From positions 1 through 64,000 of the forward strand of contig MEQB01000032.1 in the NCBI GenBank assembly GCA_001770015.1: a stretch of 64,000 nucleotides of DNA, given 5' to 3'. Below are positions 1-50,299 of the stretch, one piece after another. The first letter of the stretch is position 1; every line of letters begins with the position of its first letter. A program made the position numbers and the translations under genes. The stretch comes from Bdellovibrionales bacterium RIFOXYC1_FULL_37_79. Its GTDB lineage: Bacteria; Bdellovibrionota; Bacteriovoracia; Bacteriovoracales; Bacteriovoracaceae. A model generated the notes under the pieces. The model had not been told where the DNA came from. It worked only from the letters and a program-made list of their open reading frames with translations, and did not search any database.

Positions 1-3000
1 CATAAACATCCACGTCAGTTGCTACATCAGCCGTAAAGGTTACAGATTTTTGAGACGAAGTCACACCATTGGCCGTAGCTGTATAATTATAGGTTCCGGC
101 CACTAGTGAGCTAGTTAATGTAAAGACTGCCAAACCACTAGCATTGGTATTAACCGTGCCAGGCACTGAGCCACCGTTAAGTGGAATATTTAAGGTTACG
201 GTTTCATTATTAACCGGGTTACCGTTGGTATCAGTCACTGACGCTGTTAAGGTAGTGGTTGATGATCCATTAGCAACAATTGAACTTACACCGGTTACAT
301 AAACATCCACGTCAGTTGCTACATCGGCGGTAAAGGTTACAGATTTTTGAGACGAAGTCACACCGTTAGCAGTAGCGGTATAGTTATAGGTTCCAGCAAC
401 TAAAGAACTGGTCAAAGTAAATACTGCGAGTCCTGAAGCGTTCGTGTTCACTGTTCCAGGGACTGATCCACCATTAAGTGGAATATTTAAAGTTACGGTT
501 TCATTATTAACCGGGTTACCGTTGGTATCAGTCACTGACGCTGTTAAGGTAGTGGTTGATGATCCATTTGCAACAATTGATGAAACACCGGTTACATAAA
601 CATCCACGTCAGTTGCTACATCAGCAGTAAAGGTTACAGATTTTTGAGACGAAGTCACACCATTGGCCGTAGCTGTATAATTATAGGTTCCAGCTACCGT
701 CGAACTAGTCAACGTAAATACGGCCAAACCACTAGCGTTGGTATTAACCGTGCCAGGCACTGATCCACCGTTAAGTGGAATATTTAAAGTTACGGTTTCA
801 TTATTAACCGGGTTACCGTTAGTATCAGTTACTGAGGCGGTTAAGGTTGTAGTTGATACACCGTTTGCCACAATTGAAGAAACACCCGTTACATAAACAT
901 CCACGTCAGTTGCTACATCTGCAATAAAGGTCACTGATTTTTGAGACGAAGTTACACCATTAGCAGTAGCGGTATAGTTATAGGTTCCGGCCACTAGTGA
1001 GCTAGTTAATGTAAAGACTGCCAAACCACTAGCATTGGTATTAACCGTGCCAGGAACGGATCCACCATTAAGTGGAATATTTAAAGTTACGGTTTCATTA
1101 TTAACCGGGTTATCATTAGTATCAGTTACGGAAGCAGTGATAGTGGTGGTAGTCACCCCATCGGCCACTATAGAGCTAACGCCTGTGATATAAATATCCA
1201 CATTAGCTGCGGCACCTACGGTGAAGCTAACTTGTTTTTGAGTTGAAGTAATCGAATTTGCAGTGGCAGTATAGTCATAAGTTCCTGCGACTAAAGAGCT
1301 CGTGAGTGTGAACACTGCCAAACCACTGGCATTAGTATTAACTGTGCCAGGCACTGATCCACCATTAAGTGGAATATTTAAAGTTACAGTTTCATTATTA
1401 ACCGGGTTACCGTTGGTATCAGTCACTGATGCTGTTAAGGTGGTGGTTGATGATCCATTAGCGGCAATGGTTGAAGACCCCGTAACGTATAAATCTACAT
1501 TGTCAGCTACATCTGCAACGAAGGTTACTGATTGGACTCCAGAGGTGATAACATCTGCGGTGGCCGTAAAATTATATGAACCTGCTACCGTTGAGCTGGT
1601 TAGGGTAAATGAAGCTAACCCTCCCGCATTGGTATTAACTGATCCAGGAACAGATCCTCCATTTAATTGAATATTTAATACCACCGCTTCATTATTGATT
1701 GGGTTGCCATTTGTATCCGTTACAGATGCGGTAAAGGTGGTAGTACTTGATCCATTGGCCACAATCGAATTTGATCCGGTTAAATACAAATCCACATAGG
1801 CCACGGCTCCAGCGATAAAGGTGACTGACTTCTGGGTTGAAGTCACGCTATTAGCGGTAGCTGTATAATTATATGTTCCCGCAACTAAAGAACTGGTCAA
1901 AGTAAATACCGCAAGTCCCGAAGCGTTCGTGTTCACCGTACCGGGCACTGATCCACCATTAAGTGGAATATTTAAAGTTACGGTTTCATTATTAACCGGG
2001 TTACCGTTGGTATCAGTCACTGACGCTGTTAAGGTAGTGGTTGATGATCCGTTAGCAACGATGGATGAAGCACCGGTTACATAAACATCCACATCAGTAG
2101 CTACATCAGCGGTAAAGGTTACAGATTTTTGGGTTGAGGTAATTGAATTTGCCGTGGCCGTATAATTATAGGTTCCAGCAACTAGCGAACTGGTTAAAGT
2201 AAATACTGCCAGACCGCTGGCATTGGTACTTACTGTGCCAGGCACTGATCCGCCATTGAGTGGAATATTTAAAGTAACCGTTTCATTATTAACCGGGTTA
2301 CCATTGGTATCAGTTACGGATGCTGTTAAGGTGGTGGTTGATGATCCATTAGCAACGATGGATGAAACACCTGTGACATAAACGTCAACATTGGCGGCGG
2401 CACCGACCGTAAAAGTAACTTGTTTTTGAGTTGAGGTAACAGCATTGGCAGTGGCCGTATAGTCATAGGTTCCAGCGACAGTCGAACTGGTAAGTGTAAA
2501 TACGGCGAGTCCCCCCGCATTGGTGTTTACGGTACCGGGAACGGATCCACCATTAAGTGGGATATTTAAAGTAACCGTTTCATTACTGACCGGGTTACCG
2601 TTAGTATCTGTTACTGAAGCCGTAAGCGTAGTGGTGGATGATCCATTTGCAGCAATGGTTGATGCACCTGTAACGTATAAATCTACGTCGGTGGCCACAT
2701 CTGCCGTAAAGGTTACGGACTTCTGGGTTGAGGTGATGGCGTTGGCAGTTGCAGTATAATTATAAATTCCTGCGACGGTTGAACTGGTAAGAGTAAAGAC
2801 TGCCAAACCACTGGCATTGGTGTTAACTGTGCCAGGGACCGAACCACCGTTAAGCGGAATATTTAAAGTAACCGTTTCATTATTAACCGGGTTACCGTTA
2901 GTATCAGTCACTGACGCAGTTAAGGTGGTAGTTGATGATCCATTCGCAATGATGGAAGAGACACCTGTTACATAAACATCCACATCGGTAGCAACCCCGG

Positions 3001-4450
3001 CCGTAAAGGTTACGGACTTCTGGGTTGAGGTAATGGCATTGGCGGTGGCTGTATAATTATAAGTTCCGGCGACGGTTGAACTGGTAAGCGTGAATACTGC
3101 TAAACCTCCCGCATTGGTATTCACCGTGCCAGGCACTGATCCACCATTAAGTGGAATATTTAAAGTGACCGTTTGATTATTGACCGGGTTACCATTGGTA
3201 TCAGTCACGGATGCTGTTAAGGTCGTAGTACTTGATCCGTTAGCAAGTATGGAAGAGGCACCGGTTACATATACATCTACGTCGGTAGCAGCACCGGCTG
3301 TAAAGGTTACGGACTTCTGGGTTGAAGTGATGGCGTTGGCAGTTGCAGTATAATTATAAATTCCTGCGACGGTTGAACTGGTAAGAGTAAAGACTGCCAA
3401 GCCGCTGGCATTGGTGTTAACTGTGCCAGGTACTGATCCACCATTAAGTGGAATATTTAAAGTAACCGTTTCATTATTAACCGGGTTACCGTTAGTATCA
3501 GTCACTGACGCAGTTAAGGTGGTGGTTGACGATCCATTCGCAATGATGGAAGAGACACCTGTTACATAAACATCCACATCGGTAGCAACCCCGGCCGTAA
3601 AGGTTACTGACTTCTGGGTAGAAGTAATGGCATTGGCGGTGGCCGTATAATTATAAGTTCCGGCGACCGTTGAACTGGTAAGCGTGAATACTGCTAAACC
3701 TGAAGCGTTTGTATTAACTGTACCGGGAACTGAACCACCGTTTAGTGGAATATTTAAAGTGACCGTTTGATTATTAACCGGGTTACCATTGGTATCAGTC
3801 ACGGATGCTGTTAAGGTCGTGGTACTTGATCCGTTAGCCAGTATGGAAGAGGCACCGGTTACATAAACATCCACGTCGGTAGCAGCACCGGCCGTAAAGA
3901 TAACGGACTTCTGGGTTGAGGTAATGGCATTGGCGGTAGCCGTATAATTATAAGTTCCGGCGACCGTTGAACTGGTAAGTGTAAAGACTGCCAGGCCACT
4001 GGCATTGGTGTTAACCGTACCAGGCACTGATCCACCGTTTAATGGAATATTTAAAGTGACCGTTTGATTATTGACCGGGTTGCCGTTGGTATCTGTTACA
4101 GAGGCTGTTAAGGTGGTGCTTGATGATCCATTAGCAACGATGGAAGAAACACCAGTTACGTAAACATCCACATCGGTAGCTGGGCCGGCAGTAAAAGTTA
4201 CAGACTTTTGAGTTGAGGTTATTGCGTTGGCTGTTGCCGTGTAATTATAAGTTCCGGCGACAGTTGAACTGGTAAGCGTGAATACTGCTAAACCTCCCGC
4301 ATTGGTATTAACCGTGCCAGGCACTGATCCACCGTTTAGTGGAATATTTAAAGTGACCGTCTCATTGGGTATGGGGTTTCCAAGATTATCTGTTACCGAT
4401 GCCGTCAAGGTCGTCGTCGATGAACCATTCGCTACAATCGAGCTGACGCC
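1..4450 (-). repeat. array of about fifteen 297-bp tandem repeats inside the Ig-like lipoprotein gene
   Basis: The segment beginning near the codons for VDVYVTGVSS recurs about every 297 bp (for example near 302, 599, 896, 1193, then on to about 4450), so the period is exactly 99 codons. Neighbouring units are highly similar at the DNA level, and blocks of variants (such as ACATCAGCGGTAAAGG-type versus GCACCGACCG-type openings) recur in non-adjacent units, which suggests recombination or conversion between units. The unit nearest the N-terminus (about 4153-4450) is the most divergent. The array continues past the left edge. Confidence 0.9.
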
Positions 4451-13194: not shown

Positions 13195-15762
13195 GTGAAA
13201 TATTTCAATCTGGTGTATCTCCTGTTTATTTTATCTCTGCTGGGCGCCTGTATTCCAGAGGCCCGCAAGAAATGTACTGATGATCAAGTGTTGGTCAATG
13301 GTATATGCGAGCCCAAGATTCCAAATCCCGACCCCGATCAAAACCTTGACTGTGGAGCTCTTTTAAACCATCAAGAAGAAACACGGATCATGTATCAAAA
13401 TTCTTCAGTGGGATCAAGCGACAGTTGTTTAGAGGAAGTTCAAAAAAGAAGTTGTGAAAACGGACAACTCTCCACTTGGAGCGGTAGCTTTCAATTTGCA
13501 AGCTGTTCCAACGAGAGAGTGAGATATGCCGCATCTTCGGTGGCCGCCGGTTTAGCCTGTCAAACTGAAGTACAAAGACAAATCTGCCAAAATGGTATTT
13601 GCGGTACTTGGTCACCCAACAATTTTGGTTATACTAGCTGTCAGGTCCAAGGTTATGCAAGCTGCGGAAATATTCCTCATAACGGTACTGAATCAAGAAT
13701 CGCCTATAGCGCTGCTTCTGTACCTTACGGACAACTTTGCTCTGCCATTGGACAGAATCAAACCAGAACTTGTAACAACGGTAGCTGGTCTAGTTGGTCA
13801 GGTAGTTACCAGTATCTGTCCTGTTCAGTACAAGGTGCCGCCAGCTGTGGCAGCGTTCCTCATAATGGTACTGAATCAAGAGTGGCCTATAGCGCCGCTT
13901 CTGTAGCTTACGGACAACTCTGTTCTGCCATTGGACAGAATCAGACCAGAACTTGCAACAACGGTAGCTGGTCTAGTTGGTCAGGTAGTTACCAGTATCT
14001 GTCCTGTTCAGTACAAGGTGCCGCCAGCTGTGGCAGTATTGCAAGTGGTGGTTATGAGATTAGAACAATGTATCAAGCCGCCGTCGCAAGCGAAAGCCAA
14101 AGCTGTGTTTCTGAAACCCAAAACAGACTGTGCACTAACGGACAATTCAGTGCTTGGTCTGGATCTTATACTCAAACAGAATGTGTTATATCACGCATAC
14201 GTTACGAAAGTGCAACTGCAATAAATGGAATGTGTAATGAAGAAACTCAACAAATGATTTGTTCGAGTGGAGTATGCGGAGTATGGAATCCTAACCGTTA
14301 CACGAACAGCTCGTGCCATGTCGGCGCTTGGATTCCACCTATTGGAATACCAAGTCCCTCCTGGCCAAATCAGGGTATCGATATTGCTCGGCCATCGTTT
14401 CCAACCCCTTGGACTGCAGATCAGTCTGGGTGGTACTATGTAAGCGCCACAGGGTGTTCGGACTCTCGAACCTACGGCCACCCAGGATCGTCAAGGTGCT
14501 CGCTTCCTTCTGCACCTCTTGCGGGTTCAGTGATTGTGCTAAATGGAATCATCAGCAAAAGTCAGGCCCTTAATTACAATGGAACGACCAATGCTCCTAT
14601 TTGGATCATTGGATATGATCCGGAAAGTAAGCCACAACTAACCGGAGCTTGGAGTGTTAATGGTAGTTATCTCATATTTGATTCACTTCATTGGAATGCT
14701 ACAAATTTATCGGACATTAATTTGATTGATGAAGGTAATCACAATATGTACCGCAATTGTCTTTTTCGTAACACTCAAGGTACCAGCTACGGAGCGGGCA
14801 TCGGTGCGGGAGGAAATTATTTAGTATTTTATCGTATTACGGTTTATGATCAAGGTAATTGGCAGGCCAGTACAGATGTTGATAGACACGGAGTAAAAGT
14901 CTATGCCGGATCCAACATGTGGTTTGTTGACTCTAGCTTTTATCACAATCAGGGAGATGGCATCCAGGTAGGAGATGCCAACAACACAGCTGCTCAAATA
15001 AATAAAATCTACATTGGTAGAAATACTTCTTATGAAAACCTTCAGTCAGGATTATGGACGAAAAATGCAACTGATGTAATCATGTCGCAAAATATTGTCT
15101 ACGGGATTAATTACTCAAACGGTGGTGATGGTCAAGGCATGGGAGGCCAGTATGATCCCAAACATGTTTGGTTTATCAATAATATAATTCATAATACTAA
15201 AGCCGGTATCAAAATCTCTGGAGCTGATTTTGGTAGTGGTGGCCCGTGGTATGCGATTGGCAATTTAATTTATAATATTGAAAGTGATCAAGGAACTTGC
15301 AACAATTATAATGTTGGTGCACTCGCTTATCGTAACAATGGAGGATTCACAGCAATTTTCAACACTGTATTTAATGCAGATGTTTTTGTGGCCATGCCAA
15401 GTGGTGCTGGTGGAAATATTCGAATCGCTAATAATATTTTTTCGGTAAAAGACAGTTCTTCCAACAATTGCACACCAATGAGTGTGGATGTTTCCTGGGC
15501 CCATGATTATAATTTAGTATCGGATGCATCATGGATTACCGATGCTCATAAACAATCAGGGTCAGCAGCTTCTACGTTTATAAATCCAGGAATTGATTTT
15601 ACTCTTCTCCAAAATAGCAGTGCAAAAGACAAGGCGAATTCAAATGAAGAAGCTGCGTTTGCAGCCTTTCAATCACGATACGGAATTGATATTCGAAAAG
15701 ATATAAATGGAAGATCGAGGCCACAGAACTTATGGTGGGATATAGGGGCATATGAATTTTAA
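13195..15762 (+). CDS. lipoprotein with cysteine-rich WSxW modules and a right-handed beta-helix domain
   Basis: The 855-residue product starts at GTG (strong GGGAGGG site) and has a lipobox (LLGAC), so it should be anchored in a membrane. After a short Pro/Asp linker, residues of about 45-375 contain six cysteine-rich modules. The long ones carry paired Cys residues, a TCNNGSW-type turn and a SWSSWSGSY motif recalling thrombospondin type-1 WSxW motifs; modules three and four are almost identical. Residues of about 390-855 look like a parallel beta-helix (repeated asparagine- and glycine-rich rungs such as GDGIQVGD, IYIGRNTSYEN, IRIANNIFS), the fold of pectate lyases and carbohydrate-binding surface proteins. 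Polysaccharide binding or cleavage is an inference; I could not identify a catalytic site. Confidence 0.85.
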   Translation: MKYFNLVYLLFILSLLGACIPEARKKCTDDQVLVNGICEPKIPNPDPDQNLDCGALLNHQEETRIMYQNSSVGSSDSCLEEVQKRSCENGQLSTWSGSFQFASCSNERVRYAASSVAAGLACQTEVQRQICQNGICGTWSPNNFGYTSCQVQGYASCGNIPHNGTESRIAYSAASVPYGQLCSAIGQNQTRTCNNGSWSSWSGSYQYLSCSVQGAASCGSVPHNGTESRVAYSAASVAYGQLCSAIGQNQTRTCNNGSWSSWSGSYQYLSCSVQGAASCGSIASGGYEIRTMYQAAVASESQSCVSETQNRLCTNGQFSAWSGSYTQTECVISRIRYESATAINGMCNEETQQMICSSGVCGVWNPNRYTNSSCHVGAWIPPIGIPSPSWPNQGIDIARPSFPTPWTADQSGWYYVSATGCSDSRTYGHPGSSRCSLPSAPLAGSVIVLNGIISKSQALNYNGTTNAPIWIIGYDPESKPQLTGAWSVNGSYLIFDSLHWNATNLSDINLIDEGNHNMYRNCLFRNTQGTSYGAGIGAGGNYLVFYRITVYDQGNWQASTDVDRHGVKVYAGSNMWFVDSSFYHNQGDGIQVGDANNTAAQINKIYIGRNTSYENLQSGLWTKNATDVIMSQNIVYGINYSNGGDGQGMGGQYDPKHVWFINNIIHNTKAGIKISGADFGSGGPWYAIGNLIYNIESDQGTCNNYNVGALAYRNNGGFTAIFNTVFNADVFVAMPSGAGGNIRIANNIFSVKDSSSNNCTPMSVDVSWAHDYNLVSDASWITDAHKQSGSAASTFINPGIDFTLLQNSSAKDKANSNEEAAFAAFQSRYGIDIRKDINGRSRPQNLWWDIGAYEF
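13663..14028 (+). repeat. two 183-bp near-identical tandem units in the cysteine-rich region
   Basis: The 61-codon unit beginning at the CG(N/S) codons near 13663 is repeated at 13846 with only scattered differences, and its last part (SWSGSYQYLSCSVQGAASCGS codons) is essentially identical up to about 14035. This indicates a recent duplication or conversion within the gene. Confidence 0.85.
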
Positions 15763-41223: not shown

Positions 41224-42351
41224 TTACTCTACATTCGTAAGCAGATCATAAAGTCTCTTATAATCAACATCACCGGTTAAAACATAAGAAACAAATAAGG
41301 GATTTTTTCTGATTTGTTTAAGTGCTGCAAATTCTTTTGATAAATCAAAGGACAAGGCCTGCCTGCCTACCACTGAGAGAATGATGTCATTATCCTCCTT
41401 ACTAGTGGTGAAACCGATTATAGGTTGATCCAGGCCAGAAGTGCTTTTGATCCAGGTTCCCTCTCCGTTTGGATCCTTCGTAGAACCCACAAAGATGGGA
41501 ATCTTTTTTTCTTTTACTGGCTCCATGGTCCGTTCAAACAAAACCCGGGCCCCCAGCTTGGCAAAGGTCTCCGCCTCGTCGTAAGTCAGCTCTTTAATGG
41601 TTTTAGCCGTGGCCACCAATTTGGGATCACAAACCTTGACCCCGTTTACATCCGTCCAAATAAAGTACTGATCCGCACTTAAAACACTGGCCAGGATGGA
41701 ACCCGTATAATCCGATCCCTCTCGTCCCAGAGTGGTGGTATGCCCCAGAGAGTCCTTGCCAATAAAACCTTGAGTCACAATAATATTGTCCTGAACCAAT
41801 AGAGGTTTGATTTTTTGCTGGGCCAATTCATCAATTTTCAAAAAATCGGGATTGGCGCTTTGATAAGTGGAATCGGTAATCAACACTTCTCTGATATCAA
41901 AATAAATGGATTGGGCACTTTCCCCCAGGCAATAATTCAAACTGGCGGCAAACATAACCGAGGAGAGCCTCTCCCCGATACTATAAAGCGCATCCATCAG
42001 ATAGGGTGGGCAGTCTCTTTTACTTTGCAGTATAAGCGAATAGCCACGGGCCTCGTTATAAAGCTTGATCAAATCATCCTTGACTTGTTCATAGATAAAT
42101 AAATCTTTGGCAATTTTATCATGCCTGCCTACCAGGACATGAAACTGATGGTTAAGATAATCGTTATCGCCCTTGATGGAGGCCCGGGCGATGTCTTCCA
42201 GCATATTGGTGGTATTCCACGTCGCACTGATAACCACCACCGTGGGGCGGGGCAGTTTTTTTACAATATCCACACAATACATCATGGAAGACGCATCTTT
42301 AACACTACTTCCACCAAATTTTGAAACAATTAATCCAGACTGAATAGACAT
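41224..42351 (-). CDS. lysC: aspartate kinase
   Basis: The 375-residue protein phosphorylates aspartate, the first step toward lysine, threonine and methionine. The amino-acid-kinase signature KFGGSSVKD is at the N-terminus, LGREGSDYTGS and FIWTDVNGVKVCDP follow. I set the start at 42349-42351, which has GAGGTGA upstream. At 375 residues it is shorter than usual (about 400-450): after the kinase domain there is only about 75 residues with one ACT-like segment (IILSVVGRQALSFDL), so allosteric control may be reduced. It is a single gene with its own upstream region. Confidence 0.93.
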   Translation of the reverse strand: MSIQSGLIVSKFGGSSVKDASSMMYCVDIVKKLPRPTVVVISATWNTTNMLEDIARASIKGDNDYLNHQFHVLVGRHDKIAKDLFIYEQVKDDLIKLYNEARGYSLILQSKRDCPPYLMDALYSIGERLSSVMFAASLNYCLGESAQSIYFDIREVLITDSTYQSANPDFLKIDELAQQKIKPLLVQDNIIVTQGFIGKDSLGHTTTLGREGSDYTGSILASVLSADQYFIWTDVNGVKVCDPKLVATAKTIKELTYDEAETFAKLGARVLFERTMEPVKEKKIPIFVGSTKDPNGEGTWIKSTSGLDQPIIGFTTSKEDNDIILSVVGRQALSFDLSKEFAALKQIRKNPLFVSYVLTGDVDYKRLYDLLTNVE

Positions 42352-42433
42352 AGGATTCACCTCTTTCAATCTCATAAGACTATACTAAACTTTAAAGAAA
42401 ATCATCCGTTTTTTATCTACTCTTTTTTTTAAT

Positions 42434-44098
42434 TTATCTTAGTTTTGATAACATTCCTTTTAGACAATATATTATAGATTTTATTATCACTCTGCTCGCT
42501 TTAACTTTTGTTAAATCTTCTGGGCTTAAATTATATGCGTAAGAAATAATTTGCTTTGTTTTAGGATCATATTGAAAAATTCCCTTACCATCGAAACCAT
42601 ACTTACCAATTCCAAGGTTTAAAACTGTTTCCATGCGACCACCAACAACAAAATAACATAATTGCTCATTATAAAAATATTTTTTAAATATTTTGCTCAA
42701 AGTTTTTTGTTTGTATCCAAGATTTTCGTTATTAAGTTTAGGGGTAATATCTTCTAAATATCTCAAATATAAATCATTTTGTATTTCCCCTAATACAGCT
42801 CTCGGTGATCCATATTGACGTAATGGATTTTCGGCTTCAGGGAAATCTGTATCTTTTCTGGTAACATACTCTTTTAGTTGAACCAAATAACTATTACCAG
42901 AATCTGAAAAATTAATTTTTTTTCCAGTTAGTCGTTCAACATTTTTCTTATATTCATCAATAAATTCTAACATTAATTCAGCTTTTTTCCGATAATCAGG
43001 TTCCATATCAATTACACTTTGACCTGTGTAAAGCGCAAGATTATAGCCGGGAACAGCTTTACCATAGCTACCGTCCAGATAGTCCCAATAAACAATAGAA
43101 TGATCCCCAACAGAAGGGTCAAGATTTACTGGCTTACCTTGACTTAATCTTGTAAATGGATCAATTAATATATCTGGAAGATCTTTAAAACCGATATTGG
43201 CCAAATCTCCAGTTTCCCTATCCACATATGCAAGTAGATTTTGAGTATGTCCAGCAACGTAAAATCCATGATTAAAGTTAATATTTGCGCTGAATTGCGC
43301 CAACTTTGGAATATAAATTTCTTTTATCCATTGATCTACACTCATTTTTTTTTTGTCAGCAAGCTCTTTTAATAAATGTGTTTTACTTAATAGCCCATGA
43401 AGGCCAAACCATTTGGTTGATTTATTTCCAACAGGTGAAGTTAAAGTTCTGACTGTATAGCTATATTTGATTTTATCAGTGTACACCATTTGAGCAGCAA
43501 AACGTTCAGGTAAAAAGCTCGTAATTTTGTCATCGCTTTCTCTAAGTGTTGTTTCCAGAAAATCATTATTACGTATTCCATCTTCTAGTGATGAAAGAGA
43601 ATTGTGTCCGTAAGTATTATCATTTGTTAATTGCTTCAGCCTAAGTGCTACAGGTTCATATGACTTATCACTTGGGTGCCAAATAAAATATGAACTATGA
43701 CCTTGCATTTTAATACCTAAAAATTCTTTTTTAATACTAGCACTGTATTTATGTGATTTTAAAAAAACGGACAGTGTTTCTGGAATTTTAGCCTCATCAA
43801 AGAAAAAACGAATATACTTTTTTCCATTTTTTTCTACTTGTGAATACTTGGTAGTATTAGCATCAACATATTTGGATAGAATACCTTCAACTTCATTTTC
43901 TGGAATTTCGATCGTCGTAATTTGAATAATATTTCTATCTTTAACTGGAATTGCTTCAGTTTTACGTTCATATACATTTTCAAACTCATTCCTAATCATC
44001 TCTCGCCATTTTTCGGGTACTTGAGAATAATCAATCTCAGCAATAGCAGGGATTGATAAGATTAAAAAAGAAGATAAAAAAAACTTATAAACACGCAT
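42434..44098 (-). CDS. exported protein of unknown function, possibly kinase-fold-like
   Basis: The 554-residue product starts at the ATG with TTAGGAG just upstream and has a signal peptide (MRVYKFFLSSFLILSIPAIA). A central part (about residues 260-330: KTHLLKELADKK, NINFNHGFYVAGHTQNLLAYVD, NIGFKDLPDILIDP) has a spacing that recalls the HGQN-type loop and following RD motif of IucA/IucC siderophore-synthetase or kinase-like folds. That resemblance is weak and may be chance, especially for an exported protein. No other domain recognised. A duplicated segment ends 83 nt upstream of the start. Confidence 0.72.
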   Translation of the reverse strand: MRVYKFFLSSFLILSIPAIAEIDYSQVPEKWREMIRNEFENVYERKTEAIPVKDRNIIQITTIEIPENEVEGILSKYVDANTTKYSQVEKNGKKYIRFFFDEAKIPETLSVFLKSHKYSASIKKEFLGIKMQGHSSYFIWHPSDKSYEPVALRLKQLTNDNTYGHNSLSSLEDGIRNNDFLETTLRESDDKITSFLPERFAAQMVYTDKIKYSYTVRTLTSPVGNKSTKWFGLHGLLSKTHLLKELADKKKMSVDQWIKEIYIPKLAQFSANINFNHGFYVAGHTQNLLAYVDRETGDLANIGFKDLPDILIDPFTRLSQGKPVNLDPSVGDHSIVYWDYLDGSYGKAVPGYNLALYTGQSVIDMEPDYRKKAELMLEFIDEYKKNVERLTGKKINFSDSGNSYLVQLKEYVTRKDTDFPEAENPLRQYGSPRAVLGEIQNDLYLRYLEDITPKLNNENLGYKQKTLSKIFKKYFYNEQLCYFVVGGRMETVLNLGIGKYGFDGKGIFQYDPKTKQIISYAYNLSPEDLTKVKASRVIIKSIIYCLKGMLSKLR

Positions 44099-44392
44099 AT
44101 CTCCTAATCGGTTTTCTGATATACATCTTAACAAAATTAAGGGATTTCCCTTACAAATTGATGCAAACAAAACGGTTCTGGAATTTCATCCCCTTCCTCT
44201 TTTATCCACATAAGTTCAGCCAGACTCATGGGGCGGGGAAACCCCGGCGAGGCTTACCAGTTGAAATCAAAAGAAATGAAATGAATTATTTTTTTTGAAA
44301 GGGCCTTGACGAAGTCATCAATATCGCAGAATAATCGGGTTAAATCCATTTTTTCCCCCAATAATTTGTTTGTGGTAAAACTATTATGGAGG

Positions 44393-44425
44393 AAAAAAAA
44401 CGGGCCAAACAGGCCCGTTTTTTTT
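44393..44425. terminator. bidirectional terminator, copy A (loop AAACA)
   Basis: Eight A, CGGGCC, loop AAACA, GGCCCG and eight T make a symmetrical intrinsic terminator able to stop transcription in both directions. It lies 36 nt beyond the stop of the gene fragment and 295 nt before the exported 554-residue protein. Its loop is the exact reverse complement of the loop in copy B. Confidence 0.9.
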
Positions 44426-44461
44426 ATAAAATCTTACAATTTAGTCCAAACTGAGGTTAAA

Positions 44462-44783
44462 TTACTCGCTTCGATCCATTATTTTTTTATCGCTCACCAC
44501 AATTCCAAAAGAACGTGCGGCAAAATACACTTGACTGGGGAACAATAAAGCTTTCAATTCATAACTAACCAGATAATCGGAATTCAAAACGCACCTTCTA
44601 GTATCCTGGTCATATACTAAACTTACTTTCTGAGAAATGGTCAACGCTTGCTTCCTGTTATTTTTATTCTTCCCGATAAAAGGATGATCATCAACAAGCT
44701 CGATTACCAGGCTGATTTTCTTCATAAATCTAACCAGGTTATATTTGACACAAAGATTTGGACTGCTTAAATATTTATCCTTA
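44462..44783 (-). pseudogene. C-terminal fragment of the 614-residue exported protein
   Basis: This stretch encodes the same last about 107 residues as 45925-46246, with a few changes (for example RRCVLNS for RRYVLNS). The homology stops at 44783 and an in-frame TGA follows at 44795-44797 on the upstream side. An internal ATG would give an 87-residue protein, but it lacks a signal peptide, so I treat it as a gene remnant. Confidence 0.85.
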
Positions 44784-44805
44784 ATAAACCCAATTCAACT
44801 GTTTA

Positions 44806-45321
44806 TTAAAGGCCAAGTTTAATAGTAAAAACGGGGTTGTCGCTGTTGGCGCTAACTTTTTCAAATGCTTGTTCCAAAATATGAGCGGCGGCATCACTAG
44901 GAGTAGTCGCATTATAACGACTTCTGATCATGACTTGATACGTTCCATCAATCCTGAAAAAATTTGAATGATTAAAACCATAATCCCAGGCGATGGTTAA
45001 AGAAGGTAGTTTTGCGGTGAAACGGCAGTCAGCATCTTGCGTCTTCATAAGGTTGATAACATTAACATTACTAGCGCTTGGATCAAGGATAATTAATTCG
45101 TAGGTTCCCTTGCTGCAAGTTTGTGGACCTGTGACATTAACCCATGATTCACCCGTTACAAATTGTCGATCATCAATTTTATCGACAGTATAACTAATTT
45201 CAATCTTCAACCCGGAGTCGCTCGAAGTTGAAACGTGTTTCCAAATCGCTTCTGCAAAGGTGGTTTGAGCAAACAAAAACATTAAGATTGATATTGTAGT
45301 AAATAGCAGTGTTGTTCTCAT
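44806..45321 (-). CDS. exported protein of unknown function
   Basis: The 171-residue product has a signal peptide (MRTTLLFTTISILMFLFAQTTFA) and a beta-rich mature part with two Cys residues (PQTCSKG and DADCRF) that could pair. GAGGA precedes the ATG. It sits between the two copies of the segmental duplication, so it may have arrived with, or been separated by, that event. No family recognised. Confidence 0.75.
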   Translation of the reverse strand: MRTTLLFTTISILMFLFAQTTFAEAIWKHVSTSSDSGLKIEISYTVDKIDDRQFVTGESWVNVTGPQTCSKGTYELIILDPSASNVNVINLMKTQDADCRFTAKLPSLTIAWDYGFNHSNFFRIDGTYQVMIRSRYNATTPSDAAAHILEQAFEKVSANSDNPVFTIKLGL

Positions 45322-45638
45322 AATAGTGGTCCTCGCTTTTAATGTGTTCTCTTAATGGGCATATATCGGAAAATTTGATTAATTAATATTTAAATCTTTC
45401 TTTTACCCATAATTACATGATCACATTTTTTTGAAGGCAAAAACGGCATGTACTTCTTACACGGTTTTAATAGAAAAACATTTTTTTCTTGATTTGGGTT
45501 TGATAGATAAAGGGATTAGTAAAAATGTAGTTAAAAATATGACTAGTACTAGTACATCAATTTTTTAATTTTTCAAGAGGTCGCACCGCCCTTGGCCATT
45601 GGATTTACCTATGAGATTCTCTTATACAAGATGGCACC
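45322..45638. other. 317-bp intergenic DNA next to duplication copy B
   Basis: This AT-rich gap before the exported 171-residue protein should hold its promoter. An ACTAGTACTAGT palindromic repeat lies near 45541-45556. I see no gene. Confidence 0.5.
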
Positions 45639-46246
45639 AATTTCATCCCCTTCCTCTTTTATCCACATAAGTTCAGCCAGACTCATGGGGCGGGGAAACC
45701 CCGACGAGGCTTACCAGTTGAAATCAAAAGAAAAGAAATGAAATGAATTATTTTGTTTAGAAAGGGCCTTGACGAAGTTATCGATGTCACAGAATAATCG
45801 GGTTAAATCCATTTTTTCCCCCAATAATTTGTTTGTGGTAAAACTATTATGGAGGAAAAAAAACGGGCCTGTTTGGCCCGTTATTTTTATAAAATCTTAC
45901 AATTTAGTCCGAACTGAGGTTAAATTACTCGCTTCGATCCATAATTTTTTTATCGCTCACCACAATTCCAAAAGAACGTGCGGCATAATACACTTGACTG
46001 GGGAACAATAAAGCTTTCAATTCATAACTAACCAGATAATCGGAATTCAAAACGTACCTTCTAGTATCCTGGTCATATACTAAACTTACTTTCTGAGAAA
46101 TGGTCAACGCTTGCTTCCTGTTATTTTTATTCTTCCCGATAAAAGGATGATCATCAACAAGCTCGATTACCAGGCTGATTTTCTTCATAAATCTAACCAG
46201 GTTATATTTGACACAAAGATTTGGACTGCTTAAATATTTATCCTTA
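45639..46246 (-). repeat. segmental duplication, copy B (source side)
   Basis: This is the intact side of the duplication described at 44182-44783: it contains the 3' end of the complete 614-residue gene and its terminator. Differences from copy A are few and scattered apart from the terminator loop and a small indel (GAAAAGAAATG versus GAAATG near 45731). Confidence 0.92.
45856..45888. terminator. bidirectional terminator, copy B (loop TGTTT)
   Basis: Eight A, CGGGCC, loop TGTTT, GGCCCG then TTATTTTTAT. The stem matches copy A but the loop is inverted. It lies 36 nt beyond the stop of the 614-residue exported protein. Confidence 0.9.
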
Positions 46247-47769
46247 GCAATCGAGTCATATGATAAATAGATACTGCCACTAGCATCAATTCTCATATTT
46301 GGAACTTCAGTATCAAAATAGTAATCTTTATTTTTCAATTCACTTGGAATAGTAATCTCCTTTGATCCTTTACACAGCGCTATCTGATCAAGAAATATTC
46401 CATTTTCATTGGTGATTTTGGTTTGCTCAAAAGATGAATTCCAATCCGGGAAAAATTCCGTTGAAAAACTCGACACAAATTTTATCCATTCCCCCTTAGA
46501 CATACGATAAAAATTATTAATATACTTTGTATAAGGCGATAATGTTTTTCTCATATTGGAAGGAACCTGCAGAACAAATCTTTGTTTAAAATATTTAAAT
46601 TCTGTGGAATATTGGCCGTAATAAACTAGATGGTCACGTAATTCATCCAAAAAATGCCATATGCGTAGTTGTGCATAATCTGTAACTGGCGAACGAGGAT
46701 CCCCCTTAGAGTAGGATGCCTCCAGTCCAAATGCATAAAAGTTAGGATAATTGCCTACATATTTCTTGAGAAAATATCTTGTAATCCGTCGTAGTTCTTC
46801 CTGCGAGAGTAAATAACGTTTAATTTCAATTTTCTTGCCGGTCAACAATTCATACGACTGACCTAATTTATTGAATATTCCCCAATATAATTTGGCATTG
46901 ATTTCCCTTGCTCTTTTACTAGTGCTATCCCCTTGCTTCTGGGTAATATCGTAAATAATTTCATGAGTAATGGTACCGACCTTGTCCACAACACTAAGCG
47001 GTCGATACTTCTTATCACCCTCCTTGTATTTTACAATCCAACCACTTCTTTGAATACTAACAATGCCATTTTTTCTATGGGCCAATTGGAATTTCCCATC
47101 ATTATCGTTCAATCCATAAATGCCACCTTCATCGCCCACTTCGTCATTTCTTTCAACAAGTACCCAGTCAAGTTCAAGCATTTTATTTTTCAAAAGAACA
47201 TAATATGCAGGGGCGTATTTAAATAATTCATACATTTTATTGGTAAGGCCTATGCATTCAAGATCTGTCATCTCCAGGGGGGCACAAACATGTTCTGTGA
47301 CATAACGAAAATCTTCCTTACTCTTTATGATTTCAGGATGCAAACTATCAAATTCTTCAGTACTCGCCCTGGCCAATCCGTGTTCTGCAAAATCCAGAAG
47401 TTTTATATCTCTTTCAGGAAAAATATAAAACTTAAAATTGGTATGCAAAACTCCATCGCCACCGCCACTACTTCCGGTTCCAAGATTTAACGTAGCAATG
47501 CTTTGATTGTTTTGAGAATTGGTATTTTTTGATGGTAAGAGATTTTGCATACTGCCTGGTTGAAGCATTTCTTGGATCGTGGAACCCTCGTTGTAAGCAT
47601 TTACCTTGGTAGAATGACTGGTGGCCTCTACCTGTTTTGGTAGGCCAAACCCACATGAAATAATCCCGATAATAGCCATAGACATGAATAGTTTTTTCAT
47701 AGGTTTTGAATCTAGCACAACCTCGCCCCGCGTCGCATCATATTCTTTTAGTTTGTATAAATTTTTCAC
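45925..47769 (-). CDS. exported (probable lipoprotein) protein of unknown function
   Basis: The 614-residue frame starts at GTG 47769 with GGAGG 6 nt upstream. Translation from there gives an unusual 23-residue charged lead before the hydrophobic signal MKKLFMSMAIIGIISCGFG; a second start at 47700 would give a normal signal but has no ribosome site. IISC may be a lipobox. Near residue 270, THEIIYDITQ followed by STSKRAREINAKLY resembles a pattern (HExxYD...S..AR) that I recall from other exported Bdellovibrio-type proteins; it is not a standard HExxH zinc site. The last about 107 codons are duplicated at 44462-44783. The gene is divergent from a truncated TIGR02147 gene. Confidence 0.8.
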   Translation of the reverse strand: MKNLYKLKEYDATRGEVVLDSKPMKKLFMSMAIIGIISCGFGLPKQVEATSHSTKVNAYNEGSTIQEMLQPGSMQNLLPSKNTNSQNNQSIATLNLGTGSSGGGDGVLHTNFKFYIFPERDIKLLDFAEHGLARASTEEFDSLHPEIIKSKEDFRYVTEHVCAPLEMTDLECIGLTNKMYELFKYAPAYYVLLKNKMLELDWVLVERNDEVGDEGGIYGLNDNDGKFQLAHRKNGIVSIQRSGWIVKYKEGDKKYRPLSVVDKVGTITHEIIYDITQKQGDSTSKRAREINAKLYWGIFNKLGQSYELLTGKKIEIKRYLLSQEELRRITRYFLKKYVGNYPNFYAFGLEASYSKGDPRSPVTDYAQLRIWHFLDELRDHLVYYGQYSTEFKYFKQRFVLQVPSNMRKTLSPYTKYINNFYRMSKGEWIKFVSSFSTEFFPDWNSSFEQTKITNENGIFLDQIALCKGSKEITIPSELKNKDYYFDTEVPNMRIDASGSIYLSYDSIAKDKYLSSPNLCVKYNLVRFMKKISLVIELVDDHPFIGKNKNNRKQALTISQKVSLVYDQDTRRYVLNSDYLVSYELKALLFPSQVYYAARSFGIVVSDKKIMDRSE

Positions 47770-47821
47770 CTTACACCTCCAAAGTGTCTTGTTGTTTTTG
47801 TTGTGCCCATCCTAATGCAAC

Positions 47822-47977
47822 TGAAAAAAAATTATAGGTTATTATTATTAAAATATGATATAATAACTTATTATTTACTAACTATTACTTAATATCTTAT
47901 TAATTTTAAAGGATTTTCCATGACAGTATTTGACTTTAAAAATTATAAAAACTACCTGAAAAAAATACTTGATACCA
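47822..47977 (+). repeat. direct repeat, truncated copy of the TIGR02147 gene 5' region
   Basis: About 156 bp match 49362-49516 with few changes, covering the promoter (extended -10 TGATATAAT at 47856-47864), leader, AAAGGA ribosome site and first 19 codons. The match ends abruptly after the codons for LDT(I/K). Confidence 0.9.
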
Positions 47978-47997
47978 TAGGAGCATCAGGCTTCTAA
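47920..47997 (+). pseudogene. truncated TIGR02147 gene remnant
   Basis: ATG at 47920 begins MTVFDFKNYKNYLKKILDT, the same as the intact gene at 49459, then diverges and reaches TAA at 47995-47997 after 25 codons. The promoter and ribosome site are preserved, so a short transcript may still be made, but the regulator is lost. Confidence 0.85.
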
Positions 47998-48026
47998 CTC
48001 TTTGGATATTTATCTAAAAAATAATT

Positions 48027-49205
48027 TCACAACAAATCACCACTCCACAATTGCTCAATAAAAGATTTTAAAGGCAGAATCTTTACGCCTTTTAGCGGGC
48101 CTGATTGTAAAGAACGTGCGTGTGTCTCAAGCGAAACGACTATTTTATGCTTCACTTTGATTTCTTCAGATAAATCGATAAAAGATTTAATATCTTTTTC
48201 GTGAACGGTTGTTTTGCCTTTGATTTCTAACGCAACTGTTCCGTTTCCTAAAATCAAATCAACCTCTTTTCCAGAAGATGTTCTCCAAAAATAAATATCA
48301 AGCTCAGGATTTTTATAGGCCTGATAGGCCTTGATTTCCATAAGCACCAAATGCTCAAAAGCTTTTCCAAACTCCGGAGTTCCTTGACGAACAATCCTTT
48401 TTGCCAAATAGTTAGCTACTCCTACGTCAAATAAATAAAATTTTTCAGTAAGAATCATTCGACGTTCTCGCGCTTTTGTCCACGGAGGTATTCTAAATCC
48501 TAAATGAGTGTCTTCTAAAATATCAAAATAACTCCTAACCACTTTCGCTGAAACGCCGGACTCGCTTGCGACATTTGTATAGTTTAATAATTCGCTATTG
48601 GTTATTGCAACCACGTTTAGAAAATTTGAAAAATTTGGAATATTGGTTACCAATGCTTCTGCGATAATTTCCTCTTTCAAATAATCTGCTACATAACTTC
48701 TTAATTCTTCAACCGGGTTATCCGAAAGATAATGCGATGGCAGCAGTCCTGAAGATAATACCCCTTCGATATCGTATTCAGATATTTCTGTAAGAGATAA
48801 GGGATTCATCACTCTACGCCATGCTCTACCACCAAGCATGTTGGCATGACCTTTTTTTAGTTTGCGAGCACTAGAACCAGTAAGTATGAAAATAACCTTC
48901 GTGTTTTCAATCATCCAATGAACTTCATCAAGCAAACTCGGAACTTTTTGAATTTCATCGATAACGATAACGCCGTTAAAAGAGGCATATCTTTCCCTCA
49001 AAAGACCAGGACGTTGAGTATATAAAATGAGCTGATCCGTAAGCAAAAAATCAATATATTCTGCTTGAATTTTTTGGCCTGCCAGTTGGGGAAAAAAATA
49101 GTTTTTAATCCAGTACGTTTTTCCAACTTTTCTTGGGCCCCATAAAAAAAAGGACTTCCCGTGATGGATGTTTATATCTAAATTTCGTGTAATTATTTTT
49201 TTCAT
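48027..49205 (-). CDS. AAA ATPase with DUF4143-type C-terminal domain
   Basis: The 392-residue protein belongs to the widespread AAA_14/DUF4143 family: Walker A GPRKVGKT, Walker B VIVIDEIQK, sensor LTGSSARKLKKG, then the C-terminal region with GTPEFGKAFEHLV, EVDLIL and ALEIKGK, the last two matching a PD-(D/E)xK-type nuclease core (Asp, then ExK). Family members are common, mobile and often multicopy; their role is unsettled. The start is set at 49203-49205 with AAAGG 6 nt upstream. It lies between two copies of the start of a TIGR02147 gene and is read in the opposite direction, as if it replaced part of one copy. Confidence 0.9.
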   Translation of the reverse strand: MKKIITRNLDINIHHGKSFFLWGPRKVGKTYWIKNYFFPQLAGQKIQAEYIDFLLTDQLILYTQRPGLLRERYASFNGVIVIDEIQKVPSLLDEVHWMIENTKVIFILTGSSARKLKKGHANMLGGRAWRRVMNPLSLTEISEYDIEGVLSSGLLPSHYLSDNPVEELRSYVADYLKEEIIAEALVTNIPNFSNFLNVVAITNSELLNYTNVASESGVSAKVVRSYFDILEDTHLGFRIPPWTKARERRMILTEKFYLFDVGVANYLAKRIVRQGTPEFGKAFEHLVLMEIKAYQAYKNPELDIYFWRTSSGKEVDLILGNGTVALEIKGKTTVHEKDIKSFIDLSEEIKVKHKIVVSLETHARSLQSGPLKGVKILPLKSFIEQLWSGDLL

Positions 49206-49361
49206 TTTTGACCTTTCAGGGCATTTTATCCTGTAATTATGCCCAGTCAAGCCAATTTATCACGAATATTACCTGTAACTATTCTTTATTTTATAATTTC
49301 ATACAAAGGCCGGTATCCCCCCGGTACATAAAACGAATTGCAAAAAGATTTTTTGGTTAAC

Positions 49362-49516
49362 TTGAAAAAATTAAAGGTTATTGTTATTAAAATATGATAT
49401 AATAACTTATTATTTACTAACTATTACTTAGTATATTATTAATTTTAAAGGATTTTATATGATAGTATTTGACTTTAAAAATTATAAAAACTACCTGAAA
49501 AAAATACTTGATACCA
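49362..49516 (+). repeat. direct repeat, intact TIGR02147 gene 5' region
   Basis: The counterpart of 47822-47977; here the reading frame continues into the full gene. The two copies lie 1.54 kb apart in the same direction on either side of the ATPase gene. Confidence 0.9.
49398..49403 (+). promoter_or_regulatory. extended -10 box (TGATATAAT) of the TIGR02147 gene
   Basis: TATAAT preceded by TGA fits an extended -10 promoter; no good -35 is seen. The same element is conserved in the truncated copy at 47859-47864. The leader of about 50 nt ends in AAAGGA 8 nt before the ATG. Confidence 0.6.
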
Positions 49517-50259
49517 AAGGAACCTTGCGGGGATCAAGATCAAAACTGGCAAAGACACTTGGCTGCCAAACTGGTTTTATATCGCAAGTTTTAAATGGAA
49601 ATACTCATTTCAGTCTCGAACATTGTGCTGGTATCAGTAAATATCTTGGACACGATGAAGAAGAAAAACATTTCTTTATGCTACTTTGCCAGCTAGAAAA
49701 AGCCGGCTCTACGGATTTAAAAGAATATTATCAATCTCAAATTCAAAAAATCCAAAATGAGAGAAAAGAAATAAAAAATCGAATCAAGGTCACCCAGGAA
49801 CTTTGCGAGGTGGATTATATCACCTACTATAGTCAGTGGTATTACGCCGCCATCCATGTTCTGGTTTCCATCACCAAATTTCAAACCAAGGAATCCATAT
49901 CTAAAAGATTAAATATAAATCTTGAAACGACTTCGCAGGCCTTAAAATTTTTAACAGAAAAAGGGATTATTATCGATAATTTTGGCAAATATAATATTAG
50001 TCAATTGCGCATTCACCTGGACCGCAAATCCCCACTGATCAATAAACATCATACCAATTGGAAAATTGAAGCTTTAAAATCCTTGGAAAAATCAAATCCT
50101 CAAGATATGCATTATTCCTCGGTCATCGCCTTGTCCAAAAAAGATGCCGAGAAAATCAAGGAAGTCATGCTCAAATCGCTAGAGGACATTGAAATCATCT
50201 TAAGGCCTTCGCCCGAAGAAGAAATTTATGGGGTCTCGATGGATTTTTTTACACTTTAA
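49459..50259 (+). CDS. TIGR02147 family putative transcription regulator
   Basis: The 266-residue product matches the TIGR02147 family known mainly from Bdellovibrio-like bacteria and Fibrobacter: it opens with FDFKNYKNYLKKILDTKGTLRGS-type sequence, then a helix-turn-helix (RSKLAKTLGCQTGFISQVLNGNTHFSLEHC) of the phage-repressor type, then the long conserved helical body with YYSQWYYAAIHVLVSI and a second HTH-like segment (SISKRLNINLETTSQALKFLTEKGII). It ends with RPSPEEEIYGVSMDFFTL. It probably binds DNA; targets unknown. A truncated copy of its 5' end lies upstream. Confidence 0.9.
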   Translation: MIVFDFKNYKNYLKKILDTKGTLRGSRSKLAKTLGCQTGFISQVLNGNTHFSLEHCAGISKYLGHDEEEKHFFMLLCQLEKAGSTDLKEYYQSQIQKIQNERKEIKNRIKVTQELCEVDYITYYSQWYYAAIHVLVSITKFQTKESISKRLNINLETTSQALKFLTEKGIIIDNFGKYNISQLRIHLDRKSPLINKHHTNWKIEALKSLEKSNPQDMHYSSVIALSKKDAEKIKEVMLKSLEDIEIILRPSPEEEIYGVSMDFFTL

Positions 50260-50299
50260 CACCATATCGATTGTAATCGGCATGGCCCAGAGCTACTCA

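Follow-up and report, generated by a model that had tools for sequence, protein, structure and literature searches.

Inverted loops of a duplicated IS982-family hairpin in a Bdellovibrionales genome: a probable footprint of template switching

Two direct copies of a block of about 605 bp, A and B, are present in a 64,000-nucleotide stretch of the genome of Bdellovibrionales bacterium RIFOXYC1_FULL_37_79 (contig MEQB01000032.1, positions 1 to 64,000; hereafter the window), and both carry the same hairpin with loops of equal length: copy A has AAACA, copy B TGTTT. The two loops differ at 5/5 bases and are exact reverse complements of each other, as the first-pass annotation of this DNA had reported and the sequences verify. 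A single inversion of the loop is supported as by far the simplest account of these five changes. The difference was probably left by a single intermolecular template switch in replication at a near-perfect palindrome, and we infer polymerase switching, instead of recombination, as its cause.

Layout of the copies and origin of the hairpin

The features of the duplicated region are listed in Table 1. An alignment of 608 columns gave 96.4% identity between A and B, in agreement with the near identity, the positions and the sequences given in the first-pass annotation, and the count of changes outside the loop that it had proposed gave 11-15 substitutions, according to the placement of the gaps, plus a single 6-nt indel. 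The arrangement had been described as a segmental duplication, which is correct but incomplete, given that the tandem geometry with an 855-bp sequence between the copies was overlooked. This geometry follows from the 855 bp together with the flanks: the left flank of A runs on into a gene that we take to be hicB, a name that comes from our reading of the C1 gene pair and not from a family search, and the right flank of B runs on into the gene of a 614-aa protein. This layout would result either from an insertion into the junction of a tandem duplication or from the integration of a circular piece that carried a block of homology. In the second case A and B could have diverged before they were arranged as here, and the flip of the loop may then have taken place in another genome. 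No Pfam match was obtained for the 614-aa ORF, and no relatives of its product were found in the GTDB contigs.

Table 1. Coordinates of the duplicated region in the window
Feature	Position	Strand	Description
Duplicate copy A	44182..44783	-	putative hicB remnant, IS982-family left-end stub, hairpin, last 87 codons of the 614-aa gene
Duplicate copy B	45639..46246	-	continuous with the 614-aa ORF
Inter-copy sequence	44784..45638	-	855 bp; contains a 171-aa ORF at 44806-45321
614-aa ORF	45925..47769	-	3' end is the duplicated part; stop codon adjoins the IS end
Putative hicB 3' remnant	44160..44218	-	left edge of copy A, runs past the duplicated block
IS982-like transposase N-terminal stub, A	44209..44349	-	MDLTRLFCDIDDFVKALSKK...PMSLAELM; fused to the putative hicB remnant
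Same transposase stub, B	45666..45812	-	
IS terminal inverted repeat, A	44440..44460	-	TTAACCTCAGTTTGGAC...; homology to G022 stops here
IS terminal inverted repeat, B	45903..45923	-	TTAACCTCAGTTCGGAC...
Hairpin A	44393..44425	.	AAAAAAAACGGGCC-AAACA-GGCCCGTTTTTTTT; perfect 14-bp stem; about -20.6 kcal/mol; terminator-like on both strands
Hairpin B	45856..45888	.	AAAAAAAACGGGCC-TGTTT-GGCCCGTTATTTTT; one A:A stem mismatch; about -17 kcal/mol; terminator-like on both strands
Loop A	44407..44411	+	AAACA; presumed derived state
Loop B	45870..45874	+	TGTTT; presumed ancestral state
Stem position	44420	+	T in A; A in B (45883); A in outgroup G022; sixth hairpin difference

A, B and the intervening 855 bp are all located inside an island of ~8 kb (42337-50294) that is absent from the sister species G001, in which the sequences that correspond to 42336 and 50295 adjoin each other to within a few bases. 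The island includes a second pair of direct repeats (47826-47982 and 49365-49521, 157 bp, 95%) that comprise the promoter and first codons of a TIGR02147/DUF4423 gene and flank an AAA_14/DUF4143 ATPase gene; the pair shares with A and B the layout of a repeat flanking one gene. Elsewhere in the window, a long degenerate array of direct repeats occupies positions 1-4360 (offsets near 297 bp, 81-84% identity; related to repeats of contigs C28, C63 and C73), and two adjacent 181-bp copies, 95% identical and with a spacing of 183 bp, are found at 13673-14036. An invertible switch driven by a recombinase (inverton) was considered for the loop and discarded: the segment has five bases, and no recombinase was found among the family-matched ORFs of the island (a DUF4143 ATPase and a TIGR02147 protein).

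Rather than being the terminator proper to a gene, the hairpin lies within the left end of an IS982-family element that is now dead. Along the minus strand, the shared block contains the end of the 614-aa ORF, the terminal repeat TTAACCTCAGTTCGGAC, the hairpin, and the start of a transposase (MDLTRLFCDIDDFVKALSKK...PMSLAELM). By tblastn (E 2.8e-5), this stub matches, in order, the N-terminal ORF of another IS982-family element of this genome, on contig C17, the C-terminal half of which matches PF13612 (E 5e-72). The terminal repeat is TTAACCTCAGTTCGGACTAA here and TTAACCCCAGTTCGGCCTAA at the far end of the C17 element, and the left end alone is present here. Since the transposase remnant consists of about 45 codons with a stop, fused to the putative hicB, what is left is a relic and not an element; a complete DDE domain and the two ends are absent. 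The hairpin is a terminator-like structure internal to the IS, upstream of the transposase gene, that now stands just downstream of a host gene. Its GC-rich stem followed by a U tract has, judged from sequence alone, the form of an intrinsic (Rho-independent) terminator, and the T tracts on both sides together with the fold energies of the two strands would fit a bidirectional one; the palindrome may have acted as a hairpin that blocks read-through at the left end of the IS982-family element. A search of Rfam with the region of 40-50 kb gave nothing near threshold. The structure had been called a shared terminator, and it is terminator-like on both strands, but its origin in an IS982-family relic was not recognised.

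Among 369 genomes of the phylum and the GTDB species contigs, the only further copy of the IS left end was that of G022, a Bacteriovoracaceae MAG, and none was found in plasmids; other short matches (L006, L009-L015) look like chance matches. In G022, which belongs to another genus, an IS982-type left end with its hairpin (C188:4262-4422, L005/L042) comes directly after the stop codon of a gene for a small secreted protein. One ancestral IS insertion common to both genomes was rejected, given that the neighbouring proteins show no significant similarity; because, in addition, the homology stops at the terminal repeat, an IS of one kind seems to have inserted separately in each genome. The hairpin follows the secreted-protein gene in G022 as it follows the 614-aa gene here, and was perhaps kept as a borrowed terminator.

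Number of events and direction of the change

At the per-site divergence of the copies (15/597), five independent substitutions in the loop have a probability of about 1e-8, and five independent hits that also spell the reverse complement, of about 4e-11; a random replacement of five bases would yield AAACA with a probability of about 0.002. The value of about 4e-11 bears out the earlier claim that one inversion explains the loops better than five independent mutations. The loops of terminators do vary, since between the sister species the loop differs in 95/139 orthologous hairpins that are terminator-like; nevertheless, with such a probability at the divergence of A and B, and with no intermediate forms seen, it is hardly credible that independent substitutions or selection on terminator loops made the five changes.

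The stem contributes a sixth difference. The first-pass annotation had considered the stem to be the same in both copies, which holds for the inner part (CGGGCC/GGCCCG, unchanged between A and B), but T44420/A45883 was missed. In A the second arm exactly complements the first, as expected of arm homogenisation, and the stem is a perfect 14-bp palindrome. Under the four-point model of template switching, all single switches were searched in a 113-bp segment with 7 differences between A and B. One switch from B to A lowered the differences from 7 to 1, i.e. explained 6/7, and reproduced all six differences of the hairpin, whereas one switch from A to B lowered them from 7 to 2, and a symmetric inversion of the loop removed 5 of the 7. 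Given that the switch from B to A explains six differences, and the reverse switch or a symmetric inversion five, template switching in the direction from B to A is preferred to the resolution of a cruciform. Both mechanisms had been offered in the first-pass annotation; the second is less favoured on this count and also because the outgroup has the stem base of B.

The extrusion of a cruciform followed by resolution of the junction, or breakage and rejoining across the stem, would flip the loop without copying, and this recombinational inversion would yield the identical exact inversion of the loop. However, a flip of the inner stem alone leaves T44420A unaccounted for and requires one extra mutation, and a flip that included the mismatch would put a T into the left arm, where no such T is seen; we therefore hold a recombinational origin to be unlikely. 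If a template switch was the cause, the nascent strand, having copied the first arm CGGGCC, would re-pair with the identical stretch of the opposite parental strand, use it as template for a reversed copy of the loop and the first arm, and return to its original template within the A/T tract. By these steps TGTTT would become AAACA, and the imperfect second arm GGCCCGTTATTTTT would become the exact complement of the first arm, GGCCCGTTTTTTTT. The IS982-family element with its hairpin would have decayed first, and the tandem duplication would have come later.

One outgroup base and parsimony make the direction from B to A likely: the homologue in G022, the one available for comparison, has TATTTT at the stem position, the same as B. 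Its loop, GTGAA, resembles neither AAACA nor TGTTT and is uninformative, and the outgroup base lies in an A/T tract; for these reasons the direction is likely and not proven. An independent substitution as the source of T44420A, within the A/T tract, could cancel the directional argument and leave the five-base inversion.

Hairpin loops in the sister species

The present genome (G000) and the sister species G001, of the same genus, were compared over about 473 kb of aligned sequence at about 80% identity. From this comparison, 712 orthologous hairpins with a stem of at least 5 were obtained, and the loop was changed in 463. Exact reverse and exact complement loops, which served as controls, numbered 0 among the 463 changed loops, and exact reverse-complement loops numbered three; two of these involve three-base loops (CGG/CCG), such as chance would be expected to produce, and the third is a clean inversion. 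In this last, independent case (G000:C2:13780-13803, L073, against G001:C6) the sequences are AAGGGGAACC-GTTT-GGTTCCCCTT and AAGGGGAACC-AAAC-GGTTCCCCTT; the 10-bp stem and long flanking stretches are the same in both species, and the hairpin is a terminator downstream of a porin-like gene. The permutation expectation for exact inversions with at least 4 changes is 0.2; by count the case is only suggestive, and as an event it is convincing from its conserved context. A scan of viral contigs with the stem of this hairpin identified 14 contigs with the same palindrome.

Among the strong hairpins kept in both species (stem of at least 8 bp, n=11), one has the GTTT/AAAC inversion and one a replacement of the whole loop. 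At L120:1452-1474 (G000:C2), compared with L147 of G001, a conserved 9-bp stem encloses CTGGT in the present genome and TCCTC in G001, replaced at 5/5 bases and not inverted, from which it follows that replacement of a whole loop by other routes also occurs. A fast change of all terminator loops had been named as the observation that would speak against an inversion; in the comparison with G001 the changes were mostly ordinary substitutions, with one clean exact inversion and no reverse or complement loops, and the idea was not refuted. The search for other terminator pairs with inverted loops, also suggested earlier, had a mixed outcome: in 1.59 Mb of the present genome no duplicated hairpins with an inverted loop were found besides A/B, and one case appeared against G001.

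Gene conversion or annealing of the two hairpins in inverted register could in principle have transferred the loop in reverse, and the inverted match between the copies is real (44393-44425 against 45856-45888, 33-nt hairpins 97% complementary). The partner in the other copy is, however, about 1.4 kb off, whereas the partner within the hairpin is a few bases off, and the inversion between G000:C2 and G001 occurs in aligned orthologous sequence with no tandem copy in view; such a transfer seems highly improbable. It is also very unlikely that the difference arose from a 600-bp repeat mis-joined from two strains: the assembly is a draft of 74 contigs with 95.8% completeness, but A and B are each bordered by unique sequence and carry differences of their own, a mixture of strains would nonetheless imply two real loop states, and the second loop inversion comes from two separate assemblies.

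Loop inversion in other systems and in terminators

The flip between A and B is a new, well-formed instance of an already known type of mutation. Loop inversions by template switching have been described in rRNA hairpins across life, bacteria included (Monttinen and Loytynoja 2022, PMC8794818); as in A/B, the loop is inverted in full and the stem is retained or perfected, in accordance with the four-point model, but those cases concern conserved rRNA helices across phylogenies, and ours a terminator-like hairpin of an IS relic, in two copies within one genome. In yeast, REG2 and nine other genes show inversion of the spacer of an inverted repeat with homogenisation of the arms (Abraham and Hazkani-Covo 2021, PMC8604942). 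There too the spacer is inverted (2-5 substitutions) and an imperfect arm is made perfect by an intermolecular switch; the yeast cases are found in coding genes between strains, and A/B in bacterial, intergenic, IS-derived DNA as paralogous copies. For chloroplast DNA, minute hairpin inversions have been reported (Kelchner and Wendel 1996, cited in PMC2903610), and loops flanked by inverted repeats in plastid non-coding regions invert as in A/B, and do so frequently. Unlike A/B, the plastid inversions have longer loops, such as that of trnH-psbA (25-27-bp loop, 18-bp stems), and are recurrent within species. Experiments in E. coli have addressed mutations associated with quasipalindromes (PMC7202029 and references there), which resemble A/B in that templates are switched at imperfect palindromes in bacteria; in contrast, the reporters detect intramolecular correction of an arm (removal of a frameshift) and not the inversion of a loop. 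Among open-licence papers we found none on loop inversion in bacterial terminators.

A and B probably provide a clean, readable footprint of a replication template switch in a bacterial genome, in which loop inversion and arm correction would come from one event. With the inversion in one of 11 strong hairpins added to A/B, it is conceivable, though for us still somewhat doubtful, that bacterial terminators regularly change through loop inversion by template switching; if this is true, the stems of terminators are kept perfect partly by arm-to-arm copying, and not by selection alone. Given that terminators are abundant natural palindromes, counts of inverted loops between close species would gauge how often intermolecular template switches occur in nature, and would test the mutational and the selective share in the conservation of terminator stems.
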